From Paracholeplasma vituli (GTDB taxonomy: Bacteria > Bacillota_I > Bacilli_A > Acholeplasmatales > UBA5453): a DNA stretch of 64,000 bases. The first letter of the stretch is position 1. The number at the start of each line of letters is the position of its first letter. The translations under genes and the position numbers were made by a program. The DNA lies in contig NZ_JAOEGN010000006.1 of assembly GCF_025446935.1 (NCBI RefSeq), forward strand, positions 1-64,000, read 5' to 3'. This document shows positions 24,981 through 28,921 of this stretch, piece by piece. The notes under the pieces are model-generated. The model was given only the letters and a program-made list of their open reading frames with translations. It was not told the DNA's origin and did not search any database.

Positions 24981-25008
24981 GAAAAAACGCCAATGTGAAA
25001 TTGGCGTT
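24981..25008 (-). terminator. Terminator of the nqr operon
   Basis: Minus strand: stem AACGCCAAT / ATTGGCGTT followed by six Ts, seven bases beyond the nqrF stop. Confidence 0.85.
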
Positions 25009-25014
25009 AGTCGA

Positions 25015-26097
25015 TTACGAAAATTTGTCGTAGAAGACATTATGTTGTTTAATGTCGTGTTTATTAAGGACTTTGATGCAGGCATTAATCATCCCTGGTG
25101 ACCCACAAAGGTACGCTTCGGATTCGGATAAATCACCAACATTTCGGTCTACAACATCGGTAATGAGGCCAGTTTGTCCGGTCCAATTGTCTTCTGGAAG
25201 TGGTTCAGATAAAGCAGGAATGTATTCGAAATTAGGAAATTCTTTTTGAAGTTGTTCAAACTCTTCAGTCATATAGAGATCTCGTTTGGACTTAGCTCCA
25301 AAGAAGTATTTTACTTTTCGATTCATACCACGGTCTTTTAAGTAATAAAGGATACTACGAATCGGAGCTTTACCAGACCCACCCGCTATACAAATCATGT
25401 CTCTTTCGGAAGATTCTTGAAGGTAGAAATCTCCAAATGGTCCTGTTAATGTAATTTTGTCACCGACTCTAAGAGCTTTATGCACAAATGTGGTCGCTTG
25501 TCCATTGGGTACTTGTCTAATAATGAGTTCAATTTCGTCTGGGAATGCTGGGTTTGAAGCAATCGAATAAGCTCGAATGATATCAATACCAGGTACAACA
25601 ATTTGTGCAAATTGACCAGGCTTAAATTCCATTCTTGTTGGTGAGATGAGTTTAAATTTCACCAGTTTAATATCGTAAGTCTGATCGATGATCGAAATAA
25701 CTTTTGTTTTGTACGATTTCGCATTCAACAATTGTTTAGGTATTTCAATCTTCATATCGTCTTTGACTTTGACTTGGCAGGAAAGACGGACGCCATTTTC
25801 TTTTTCAGAGGCAGAAAGGAATGGTAACTCAGTTGGTTTGATTTCTCCACCGCCATCGATCAATCTAAATTTGCACGTACCGCAGGTCGCTTTACCACCA
25901 CATGCAGAAGGTAAATAGATTTTTTGGTCTGATAGTGTATTGAGCAAGGTATCTTCATTCTTAACAGGAATGATGATTTCATCGTTGATCATTAAGATTT
26001 TTTCTTTTCCACCACCAAGTAGTTTATCCACGACGATGAGTAGTAAGGTAATGAGCACTAAGACGCCCATTAATATGATGGGAACAAATATATTCAT
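25015..26097 (-). CDS. nqrF: Na+-translocating NADH:quinone reductase subunit F
   Basis: NqrF is the NADH-oxidising entry subunit. An N-terminal membrane helix (residues about 4-25) is followed by a plant-type 2Fe-2S ferredoxin domain with ligands C66, C72, C75 and C107. Then come an FAD-binding domain (RAYSIASNP) and an NAD-binding domain (CIAGGSGKAPIRS, YLCGSPGM). This architecture distinguishes an Nqr from an Rnf complex, which would carry RnfB/RnfC. It is last in a five-gene operon. Relatives need a covalently flavinylated partner and ApbE; no apbE is in this window. At 360 residues it is somewhat shorter than the ~407 of Vibrio. Confidence 0.95.
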   Translation of the reverse strand: MNIFVPIILMGVLVLITLLLIVVDKLLGGGKEKILMINDEIIIPVKNEDTLLNTLSDQKIYLPSACGGKATCGTCKFRLIDGGGEIKPTELPFLSASEKENGVRLSCQVKVKDDMKIEIPKQLLNAKSYKTKVISIIDQTYDIKLVKFKLISPTRMEFKPGQFAQIVVPGIDIIRAYSIASNPAFPDEIELIIRQVPNGQATTFVHKALRVGDKITLTGPFGDFYLQESSERDMICIAGGSGKAPIRSILYYLKDRGMNRKVKYFFGAKSKRDLYMTEEFEQLQKEFPNFEYIPALSEPLPEDNWTGQTGLITDVVDRNVGDLSESEAYLCGSPGMINACIKVLNKHDIKQHNVFYDKFS

Positions 26098-26106
26098 TTT
26101 GGCCTC

Positions 26107-26688
26107 CTATATGCTTGCTAGGCCAGTTAGGCCAATGAATGCTAGAGCTAATATGCCCAATAATACAAAGACAATTCCTTTACCTTTAAGTCCTCTAGGA
26201 ACATCTGCATGTTTCGCCATTTTTTCTCTTAATCCTGCAATCAGTACAATCGCGAGCATCCAACCTAGAGAAGAACCAAAGGAGAATACGGCGGTTTCGC
26301 TGAATGTGTATTCGCGGGTTACAAAGAATAACGATACTGCGAGGACAACACAGTTCACCGTGATCAAAGGTAAGAAAATCCCGAAAGCATTGTACATTTT
26401 AGGTACGAATTTTTCCATCAAAAGTTCAAGAATTTGAACAGTAGCAGCAATCGTAATGATGAACACAAGTAATGCTAAACTGGTCGTTTCGGTTTGTTTT
26501 AATAATAGATAAATCGGATAATTGATGATACCTGTCAACGTAACAACGATGACTACAGCAATCCCCATACTTTTGGCATTCTTAACCGAAGTAGAAATTG
26601 CGATTAGAGGACACATCCCGAGGATATATACGAGTGCGATATTGTGGTTCAAAATGGTTGCCACAAAGAGTTCAATTAGACGTTCCAT
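26107..26688 (-). CDS. nqrE: Na+-translocating NADH:quinone reductase subunit E
   Basis: An integral membrane subunit with six predicted helices, part of the inverted NqrD/NqrE pair that binds an iron centre at the membrane mid-plane. The conserved cysteines are in LGMCPLIA and LPLITVNCVVL. The stretch LYNAFGIFLPLITVN and the end SLGWMLAIVLIAGLREKM match NqrE more closely than RnfA. It starts 3 bases after nqrD behind GAGGAA, and nqrF follows after 9 bases behind GGAGG. Confidence 0.92.
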   Translation of the reverse strand: MERLIELFVATILNHNIALVYILGMCPLIAISTSVKNAKSMGIAVVIVVTLTGIINYPIYLLLKQTETTSLALLVFIITIAATVQILELLMEKFVPKMYNAFGIFLPLITVNCVVLAVSLFFVTREYTFSETAVFSFGSSLGWMLAIVLIAGLREKMAKHADVPRGLKGKGIVFVLLGILALAFIGLTGLASI

Positions 26689-26691
26689 GGG

Positions 26692-27318
26692 TTATTCCTC
26701 ACTTTCATAAAATTTGAGCCATTCGCGAATGCCCCAAATAAACAATGCAATGACGAAGAATCCGCCTGGAGCTAAAGCCATAATTGACCAGTTTGTGAAT
26801 GATTCAGGCATGACACGCATGCCCAAGATAGTCCCAAACGCGAGGGTTTCACGAATCAACGAGACTGTGACCAATACGAAAGTATACCCCATACCACTTG
26901 CGAAACCATCAACTAATGAATAGTGAACAGGATTCTTAATTGCATAAGCTTCAGCACGTCCCATGACAATACAGTTGGTAATAATCAATCCTACATAAGC
27001 ACCTAACTGAATCGCAATCAATGGTAGGAATGCTTCAAGGAACATCTGTACGAGAATAACAAACGTTGAGATGACGACCATATAGGTCACCATACGGACT
27101 TTACCTGGGATTAGTCTACGAAGTGCAGAAATAAATGCGCTGCTCGCCATGACTACAAAAGTAACACCGAACCCCATGGCTAACGCATTCTCCACTTTAT
27201 TAGAGACAGCTAACGAAGAACAGATACCTAAGACGGTGACGACGATTGGGTTATTGGTAGATATACCACCCTTTAATATGTTAAACCATTTTTTATAGCG
27301 TAATCGAATTAATTTCAT
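26692..27318 (-). CDS. nqrD: Na+-translocating NADH:quinone reductase subunit D
   Basis: A membrane subunit, structural partner of NqrE in the Nqr complex. The conserved cysteines are in VLGICSSLAV and LIITNCIVMGRAEA, and the C-terminal part LAPGGFFVIALFIWGIREW is typical of NqrD/RnfE. I place the start at ATG 27318 (MKLIRLRYKKW), two bases after the nqrC stop and behind GGGGGTG. An upstream in-frame start would lie inside nqrC and add a non-conserved leader. Length is 208 residues. Confidence 0.92.
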   Translation of the reverse strand: MKLIRLRYKKWFNILKGGISTNNPIVVTVLGICSSLAVSNKVENALAMGFGVTFVVMASSAFISALRRLIPGKVRMVTYMVVISTFVILVQMFLEAFLPLIAIQLGAYVGLIITNCIVMGRAEAYAIKNPVHYSLVDGFASGMGYTFVLVTVSLIRETLAFGTILGMRVMPESFTNWSIMALAPGGFFVIALFIWGIREWLKFYESEE

Positions 27319-27320
27319 CG

Positions 27321-27917
27321 TTACACCCCCACAACTGCCCATTTAGCTTTGAAATCAGCGTAAGCAGTATTTAGTATTTCTTCAAATTTTTCTGAAGTAC
27401 GCGTCCCACCTGTGATGGCATCTACTTCATTGGACAAATTATCAGCTGACCCATGACGAATCATAATATATGGAGTTGAATCAGCAAAAACAATACCTTT
27501 ATATTTGTCTAAGTACCATTTTTCAGCTACTACACCGCCTAAACCAGGGGTTTCAGATTGTTCTAGAATACTCAAATTGACGACGGTTTTGAAATCTTGT
27601 TCGAAAGTAATAACCCCACGAATGGTTCCCCAAACTCCACCACCAGAGAAGATGTAAGAGATTTGTCCTGTCGCGTTATCGATATAGAATGTATCTTGAC
27701 CTTCATATTGAATTACAGTGACTTCTTCATCAAAAATGTCATGGACCGTGTTTAAATTATACTTAATCTCATAGGCATCTAAAATGGCAGATTTAACTTG
27801 AGCTTGTTTATTCAATTCGATACGTTCTTTAGTTAATAAGTCCATACCAACCAATAAACCCGATGTGACACCACCAAGGATAATCACAAACAGAAGCATT
27901 TTAATATATTGTTTCAC
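27321..27917 (-). CDS. nqrC: Na+-translocating NADH:quinone reductase subunit C (FMN-binding)
   Basis: A membrane-anchored extracytoplasmic flavoprotein. One N-terminal helix (residues 5-27) precedes the FMN-binding domain, which contains SETPGLGG near residue 121. The flavinylation motif TGGT (T169-T172, in DAITGGTRTS) corresponds to the SGAT consensus; the last threonine should carry covalent FMN added by ApbE. It is 198 residues, shorter than the ~260 of Vibrio NqrC and closer to RnfG in size. It overlaps nqrB by 4 bases. Confidence 0.92.
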   Translation of the reverse strand: MKQYIKMLLFVIILGGVTSGLLVGMDLLTKERIELNKQAQVKSAILDAYEIKYNLNTVHDIFDEEVTVIQYEGQDTFYIDNATGQISYIFSGGGVWGTIRGVITFEQDFKTVVNLSILEQSETPGLGGVVAEKWYLDKYKGIVFADSTPYIMIRHGSADNLSNEVDAITGGTRTSEKFEEILNTAYADFKAKWAVVGV

Positions 27918-28834
27918 GCGGCTACCTCCATCGAAGGTTCTTTTTTATAACTATCGATTAATGGTGCAATTGCGTTCATGATTACTATCGCAAAAGCAGT
28001 GCCTTCTGGATACGCACCAACATCTGCACGAATAACCATGATTATTACGCCAATCCCGATACCATAGGCTACTCTACCCCATCCGTAGGTTGGTGCAGTG
28101 ACTGGGTCGGTCGCTACAAAAAACGCAGCAAATAGTACACTACCTACCAACAAGGATGAGATTGGGTCTCTAAATAGTTCCGGTACAATCCAACCCCCAA
28201 CGAGGTTAATTACAAAAATCGAAGTTAGAAGTGATAAGGTGATTCTCCAATCGATAATCTTTAGAACGATTAATGCTAATCCCAAAACCAAGATTCCAAT
28301 TCGGAATGTTTCACCCAATGACCCAGGCACATTACCAACCAACAATTCCCAAAGGTTGTAACCTAATGCGTTGTTATTTAATTGAATCAATGGTGTAGTC
28401 GAAGCGACAACATCGGTTTGTGGGTTCAACCACTGTGTATTCATATACTTTGGAAATGAGATAGTAACGAAGATATAACCAACGAGTGCAGGATTGAATA
28501 CGTTTTTCCCAAGACCACCGAATAGTGATTTCGCAAAGAATGTCCCAAATACACTACCGATGATGACAATCCATAACGGCACAGTTGGTGGCATCATGAG
28601 TGTAAAGATGAGTGGTGTGATTAATAAACTGTAATCGAGTGGTTTTTTACGAATTTTCGCAAACGCTACCTCGACCGATACGGAGCCTAAAACAGCTATC
28701 AATGCAATTAAGAATGCATACAGCCCAAAAATAATACTGGATGAGACCAGTAGAACGAATAAAACCCCTGTATAAATCAGAAGGTTTCTTCGTGTTAAAA
28801 CATCTAAATGACTAGATGTTTTGTCTGATTCCAT
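27914..28834 (-). CDS. nqrB: Na+-translocating NADH:quinone reductase subunit B / RnfD-like
   Basis: A multi-pass membrane subunit carrying covalent FMN. The flavinylation region reads ASTTPL (residues about 144-149) where the family has SGATPL, so the acceptor threonine is kept but the preceding Gly-Ala is not. The conserved GGLGKNVFNPAL and FVATDPVTAP are present. At 306 residues it lacks the ~100-residue N-terminal extension of classical NqrB and resembles RnfD in length. Start ATG 28834 is preferred over GTG 28843, which belongs to the ribosome-binding site. It is the first gene of the operon; nqrA, which normally precedes it, is absent. Confidence 0.9.
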   Translation of the reverse strand: MESDKTSSHLDVLTRRNLLIYTGVLFVLLVSSSIIFGLYAFLIALIAVLGSVSVEVAFAKIRKKPLDYSLLITPLIFTLMMPPTVPLWIVIIGSVFGTFFAKSLFGGLGKNVFNPALVGYIFVTISFPKYMNTQWLNPQTDVVASTTPLIQLNNNALGYNLWELLVGNVPGSLGETFRIGILVLGLALIVLKIIDWRITLSLLTSIFVINLVGGWIVPELFRDPISSLLVGSVLFAAFFVATDPVTAPTYGWGRVAYGIGIGVIIMVIRADVGAYPEGTAFAIVIMNAIAPLIDSYKKEPSMEVAA

Positions 28835-28891
28835 AAAATTCACCGCTTTCTCTATTGAAGTATTTGAACTTCAAAGTTAATATTTACCGTT

Positions 28892-28921
28892 ATTGTATCA
28901 TAGCGCTTTCATATATGACAA
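28892..28921 (-). promoter_or_regulatory. Promoter of the nqr operon
   Basis: Minus strand TTGTCA (28916-28921), 18-bp spacer, TACAAT (28892-28897), about 58 bases before the nqrB start. The operon therefore begins with nqrB, not with a missing upstream nqrA. Confidence 0.65.

Follow-up and report, generated by a model that had tools for sequence, protein, structure and literature searches.

We analysed a stretch of 64,000 nucleotides (the window) from Paracholeplasma vituli (Acholeplasmatales; assembly GCF_025446935.1, contig NZ_JAOEGN010000006.1, positions 1 to 64,000) that carries genes for a Na+-translocating NADH:quinone reductase (NQR). Five intact open reading frames in the order B-C-D-E-F form a complete nqrBCDEF operon on the minus strand (28843-25015; Table 1) without nqrA, as a preliminary description made from the sequence alone had stated. 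Genes were assigned to families by Pfam and NCBIfam profile searches. Every reading frame scored far over the Pfam cut-off of its own family, and the coordinates proved correct save for the choice of start codon. NqrD and NqrE were closest to the nqrD and nqrE models of NCBIfam, and NqrF was nqrF-like (291.9 bits, cut-off 295). NqrB had been called short and RnfD-like, and indeed its best NCBIfam match was RnfD (231 bits, cut-off 207). Its sequence relatives in PDB were RnfD first and NqrB next; those of the operon's NqrC were NqrC. The AlphaFold model of NqrB (predicted local distance difference test, pLDDT, 79) similarly matched RnfD best (8ahx, 9eri, 7zc6), then NqrB of Vibrio cholerae. The promoter expected directly before nqrB was recovered as the top promoter-like match of the region (10/12, with a TG extension, as a consensus match only).

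The source genome groups with the wall-less Acholeplasmataceae, to which its closest named hits belong. It (1.86 Mb, 99.99% complete) is a draft of 43 contigs, and this state, with nothing further, would favour an assembly or annotation artefact, that is, an ordinary Na+-NQR whose nqrA was missed. With the nqrA profile (TIGR01936) the top score in the source genome was 11 bits, on RnfC, against a cut-off of 321, so that no bona fide nqrA was recognised elsewhere in it. Matches over the cut-off were likewise absent from all 24 genomes of the order (the source and 23 related ones) and from 40 named genomes across phyla carrying this type of NqrF. An nqrA located elsewhere or lost at an assembly break was thus rejected on the basis of 64 genomes. 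The same five-gene order without nqrA occurs in 20 relatives, closed genomes among them, with varying neighbours; nqrB has its own promoter; and the clade is separate from canonical NQR. Against these observations the likelihood of an artefact is close to negligible. Close relatives (L035-L038) have, in convergent orientation to nqrF, a gene resembling CoA-disulfide reductase/NADH oxidase (~825 amino acids, aa) that the window lacks.

Table 1. Genes and sequence features of the nqrBCDEF operon in the P. vituli window.
Feature	Position	Strand	Description
Promoter	28892..28921	-	sigma-70-type, TTGTCA-N18-TG-TACAAT, ~50-80 bp upstream of nqrB
nqrB (RnfD-like)	27914..28843	-	309 aa from GTG 28843; ATG 28834 likelier (306 aa)
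NqrB FMN-Thr codon (ACA)	28394..28396	-	motif DVVASTTPL; aligns with V. cholerae NqrB T236
nqrC	27321..27917	-	198 aa; single membrane helix, single FMN-binding domain; PF04205, 54.5 bits
NqrC FMN-Thr172 codon	27402..27404	-	motif DAITGGTRTS; Thr kept in all NqrC examined
nqrD (RnfE-like)	26692..27342	-	216 aa; ATG 27318 suggested by relatives; two [2Fe-2S] Cys
nqrE (RnfA-like)	26107..26688	-	193 aa; two [2Fe-2S] Cys
nqrF	25015..26097	-	360 aa; contains a membrane helix, a four-Cys 2Fe-2S ferredoxin domain, and domains for FAD and NAD
Intrinsic terminator 3' of nqrF	24986..25008	-	strong hairpin, 9-bp stem, T tail

Ancestry and cofactor sites

A tree built from NqrD+E+F (94 rows, 775 columns) places the P. 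vituli operon in a clade of 42 rows (99*). This clade arises within a grade of operons with an RnfC-like gene ahead of nqrB, from Petrocella, Tissierellales, Omnitrophota, Armatimonadota and Anammoxibacter. The nesting indicates that the clade lost RnfC rather than NqrA. The 'chimaeric Nqr/Rnf-like complex' of the preliminary description thus holds for ancestry. A second NqrA-less clade, chiefly of Spirochaetes, stands separate from that of P. vituli. A single origin of all NqrA-less operons was rejected by the approximately unbiased (AU) test (p 7e-7), run on a 47-row subset with groups named after the tree was seen. The deep root is unsure because V. cholerae is the sole canonical NQR in the tree and sits on a long branch.

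The RnfC-NqrBCDEF loci of the surrounding grade (L072, L085, L089, L093, L100, L105 and L120) encode RnfC-like proteins that keep their 4Fe-4S motifs and score 241-269 bits with the rnfC model (the truncated L072 excepted) and 115-150 bits with nqrA; such a protein is a possible intermediate in NQR evolution. In the Spirochaete-type operons, a conserved gene of ~155 aa follows nqrF (L097:9087-9542 and ~30 further loci). Its product gave no Pfam or NCBIfam match, carries the motif GFLG.D.R...HGFYEGKGS..R..P, and is a candidate for a new subunit or maturation factor.

We placed on NqrB, by alignment, the residues named in the cryo-electron microscopy (cryo-EM) study of the V. cholerae enzyme (PMC10643135). 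The threonine accepting flavin mononucleotide (FMN) is residue 150 counted from the GTG start and 147 from the ATG start. The preliminary description regarded ASTTPL as an altered flavinylation site, but the acceptor threonine is kept and the motif falls within the variation of RnfD, that of Acetobacterium woodii reading TTATPL at this position. Covalent FMN sites are thus predicted at threonines of both NqrB and NqrC, and apbE is encoded.

Across the clade of P. vituli, the NqrB threonine was kept in 32 of 46 sequences (near-duplicates counted), and its loss required at least six changes by parsimony on the tree; three related genomes (L042-L044) have the entire NqrB flavinylation loop deleted. 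The same residue is present in 35/35 members of the Spirochaete-type clade and in 10/10 RnfC-bearing operons. RnfD of the same genomes served as a control: its FMN-threonine, G198, N200, N203, A205 and D346 were kept in 15/15, and its flavin sites were intact even in the seven genomes whose NqrB threonine is lost. The loss is therefore specific to NqrB. Along the outward path, the cluster cysteines were invariant in the clade (NqrD 40/40, NqrE 42/42, NqrF 42/42), and the flavinylation threonine of NqrC was found without exception.

Fast evolution of NqrB, 33-56% identical to its relatives, and the ongoing loss of its flavin sites would fit a decaying, weakly used complex. NqrD, NqrE and NqrF, however, are highly conserved (56-76% over equal distances) with invariant ligands, and all reading frames are intact; we consider decay highly improbable.

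Quinones and the terminal acceptor

NqrA had been taken as the subunit with the quinone site. Cryo-EM placed ubiquinone on NqrB instead, under two N-terminal amphipathic helices, AH-I and AH-II (PMC10643135), and NqrA has neither a cofactor nor an assigned function (PMC10643135, PMC12174285). Since quinone binds NqrB in V. cholerae, a missing NqrA alone does not exclude quinone reduction, and a scavenged exogenous quinone might be reduced at NqrB. In the AlphaFold model of the source NqrB the first helix does not begin before residue 15, so the quinone-closing helices AH-I and AH-II are predicted to be missing, and the equivalents of V. cholerae N156 and F159 are changed in the alignment. The equivalent of G141 was dropped as an argument against quinone, being S, V or G depending on the alignment.

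Searches for a quinone pathway were negative: UbiA prenyltransferase exceeded the cut-off in 0/61 genomes of the order, with 14/14 controls positive, and neither cytochrome bd oxidase nor fumarate-reductase-like FAD_binding_2 proteins were present in the nine genomes searched, the source genome included. The operon is also present (L063) in Peloplasma aerotolerans M4Ah, a strain reported to contain no detectable respiratory quinones (PMC11122141). An exogenous quinone as acceptor is accordingly very unlikely, with its pocket helices missing and no bd-type quinol oxidase found, and the earlier view that an acceptor other than a membrane quinone is needed was borne out.

Other acceptors were sought among flavoproteins. 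Proteins with FMN_bind in the source genome are NqrC and two RnfGs only; a flavinylated fumarate reductase or another FMN_bind partner was rejected as acceptor, none being found there.

The companion Rnf complex and NqrC

Neither RnfB nor RnfC is encoded in the nqr operon; both belong to a separate rnf operon on contig C11 of the source genome, which reads rnfC, rnfD, two rnfG, rnfE, rnfA, rnfB and then apbE, so that a flavin transferase exists in this genome. The source RnfB (L028, G000:C11 7569-7880) consists of 103 aa with the FeS module only, the ferredoxin repeats missing; RnfA and RnfE still have their cluster cysteines. All nine further operons of the order that were checked and have rnfB likewise encode a short RnfB (103-123 aa).

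RnfC could lend the Nqr complex an output: electrons would pass from NqrC to the FMN and then the riboflavin of NqrB, and on to a cytosolic acceptor, either docked RnfC or a soluble carrier. The RnfD-like source NqrB has the FMN-threonine and riboflavin ligands for such a return path, the ancestral operon contained RnfC, and RnfC is encoded in 22/23 genomes of the order with NqrF. It is also encoded in 27/38 genomes without NqrF, which makes the evidence for dependence on Rnf weak; strict dependence was not retained. Moreover, the seven clade genomes checked that lost the NqrB threonine keep RnfC and the RnfD sites, indicating no shared requirement, and a route from NADH through RnfC to NAD+ would have no driving force. 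We judge a return path with borrowed output unlikely, with a real if minor chance of being correct.

The rnf operon lacks rnfB in five genomes (G050, G022, G030, G032 and G052; L148, L152-L155). There all four [2Fe-2S] cysteines are gone from the RnfA/RnfE homologues, which are 21-31% identical to those of the source genome, versus 54-87% where rnfB is present; RnfC and RnfD are 51-62% identical, with flavin sites kept, and NqrC is multi-FMN in all five. In the rnfB-less genomes Nqr retains the inside-to-outside path and Rnf the other one. These observations would also fit a two-piece RNF-like machine, in which an Nqr half (NADH to NqrF, NqrDE and NqrC) and an Rnf half (RnfG to RnfD and RnfC) swap electrons via surface FMN domains; at L039 (G005), moreover, the rnf-apbE and nqrBCDEF operons lie on the same strand ~2 kb apart. 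Its energetics are unfavourable if NAD(H) serves both ends, the source Rnf still has the RnfA/E cysteines together with a short RnfB, and electron export by both halves is equally possible. Such a split circuit is, in our opinion, distinctly improbable.

In several relatives NqrC is expanded (354-847 aa), a single membrane helix being followed by 2-5 FMN-binding domains in tandem. NqrC of Acholeplasma oculi has five FMN domains; its model, of moderate confidence (pLDDT 71, predicted template modelling score, pTM, 0.37), shows one pattern repeated five times. The flavinylation threonine is kept in those repeats that the domain profile recognised.

Electron flow, sodium and significance

From the comparison with ~100 relatives we favour, at about an even chance, a Na+-coupled complex that uses NADH to send electrons to the cell surface via NqrC. 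The complex would be an RNF/NQR-type NADH oxidiser without its former cytosolic output module, which was RnfC in the ancestor. Electrons from NADH would enter the FAD and 2Fe-2S centre of NqrF, pass via the [2Fe-2S] centre of NqrD/NqrE to the other side of the membrane, and arrive at the FMN bound covalently to NqrC at the outer face. They may then leave for an extracytosolic acceptor, the multi-FMN RnfGs of the companion Rnf and/or free flavin, metal or O2, and would not go back to a membrane quinone. Multi-flavinylated RnfG has been described and proposed to feed external acceptors (Meheust 2021, PMC8238504). NqrB would act as ion channel and scaffold, its flavins becoming dispensable in the clade. 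The direction of flow, the identity of the acceptor and the Na+ coupling of this complex are inferred; what the data show is the gene content, the absence of nqrA, UbiA, bd oxidase and fumarate-reductase-like proteins, the kept and lost cofactor sites, the tree position and the Na+ signature of the c subunit.

Na+ would be pumped out and then used by a Na+-type F-ATPase. The c subunit of the source F-type ATP synthase (L160, G000:C33) reads GQGYAAAKAVEAVGRQPEA...AETTGIYGLV, the Na+ signature being GQG...AETTGIY; these residues are the ones typical of Na+-binding c rings of the Ilyobacter type. Genes for a V-type ATPase c subunit lie within ~9 kb of nqr in G022 and G032, and in L050, L051, L053 and L054 nqr has V-ATPase-like genes as neighbours, identified by visual inspection of their N-terminal sequences.

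Several points weigh against electron export. The source NqrB has the FMN-threonine and all listed riboflavin ligands, so the route back to the cytosol may remain in use in P. vituli. The NqrB FMN has been proposed as the driver of Na+ translocation (PMC10643135), and pumping without NqrB flavins is then hard to explain. The source NqrC has one FMN domain only, and a correlation between loss of the NqrB threonine and multi-FMN NqrC was unsupported, the independent events on the tree being too few. Of the earlier suggestions, delivery to an extracytosolic acceptor stands as the best-supported function, but a dedicated extracytosolic reductase was not found in the source genome. Taken together, the case for outward transfer is strongest for relatives with a lost NqrB site and weaker for P. 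vituli, in which both paths are formally intact. In a further reading, the RNF/NQR of Acholeplasmatales would be divided into complementary half-complexes (NADH to NqrF-DE-C; RnfC-D-G), with multi-FMN proteins on the surface as their meeting point, giving a quinone-free, cytochrome-free, flavin-ended, Na+-pumping respiration that moves NADH electrons outside the wall-less cell. We put this forward tentatively, as possible rather than probable.

With the V. cholerae Na+-NQR, the P. vituli complex shares NqrF with its 2Fe-2S, FAD and NAD domains, the four NqrD/E cysteines, the FMN site of NqrC and the riboflavin and FMN sites of NqrB; it differs in lacking NqrA, the N-terminal quinone helices of NqrB and a quinone pathway, and in belonging to a separate clade. 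The RNF of Clostridium tetanomorphum and A. woodii has in common with it a short RnfD-like NqrB, a short RnfG-like NqrC and an RNF-derived core (RnfD/G/E/A-like), whereas the source operon has NqrF (FAD, 2Fe-2S, NADH) instead of RnfB and no RnfC. The RnfC+NqrBCDEF hybrids, its nearest relatives in the NqrD+E+F tree, differ in having an RnfC-like output subunit. Extracytosolic electron transfer via ApbE-flavinylated domains is shared with the systems of Meheust 2021 (PMC8238504); the NQR/RNF-like system described there, in Actinobacteria and CPR, is an NqrB-NqrF fusion, whereas the source NqrB and NqrF are separate. No description of multi-domain NqrC was found in the text searched of that paper.

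The situation itself is not new. Reports from 2014 and 2018 describe NqrBCDEF without NqrA, with the partner stated as unknown, in Pseudothermotoga thermarum/lettingae (PMC4148951) and Clostridium ultunense (PMC5924567), and NqrBCDEF was listed for 'Ca. Izimaplasma' ZiA1 (PMC6256511). By their published descriptions, these systems resemble that of P. vituli in the B-C-D-E-F order, the lack of nqrA and a separate rnf operon. Compared with those gene listings, our analysis adds the tree position, NqrB site loss, NqrC expansion and quinone absence for the mollicute clade; the lineage-specific pattern of degeneration and the proposed electron flow are new as far as literature searches show.

An iron-sulfur flavoprotein membrane NADH oxidase is reported in older work on Acholeplasma laidlawii; we take it as a lead only.

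Which acceptor NqrA-less Nqr uses has been a question since 2014, and the natural variation of this clade narrows the choice: a quinone is made unlikely, and the invariant part of the complex is its outward half. Electron export is open to test in cultured species such as P. aerotolerans and A. oculi. If true, a redox-driven Na+ pump would be able to run with only one transmembrane electron path of the two, a result relevant to electron-ion coupling in RNF and NQR, and wall-less bacteria thought to be purely fermentative would have genes to account for a process akin to respiration.

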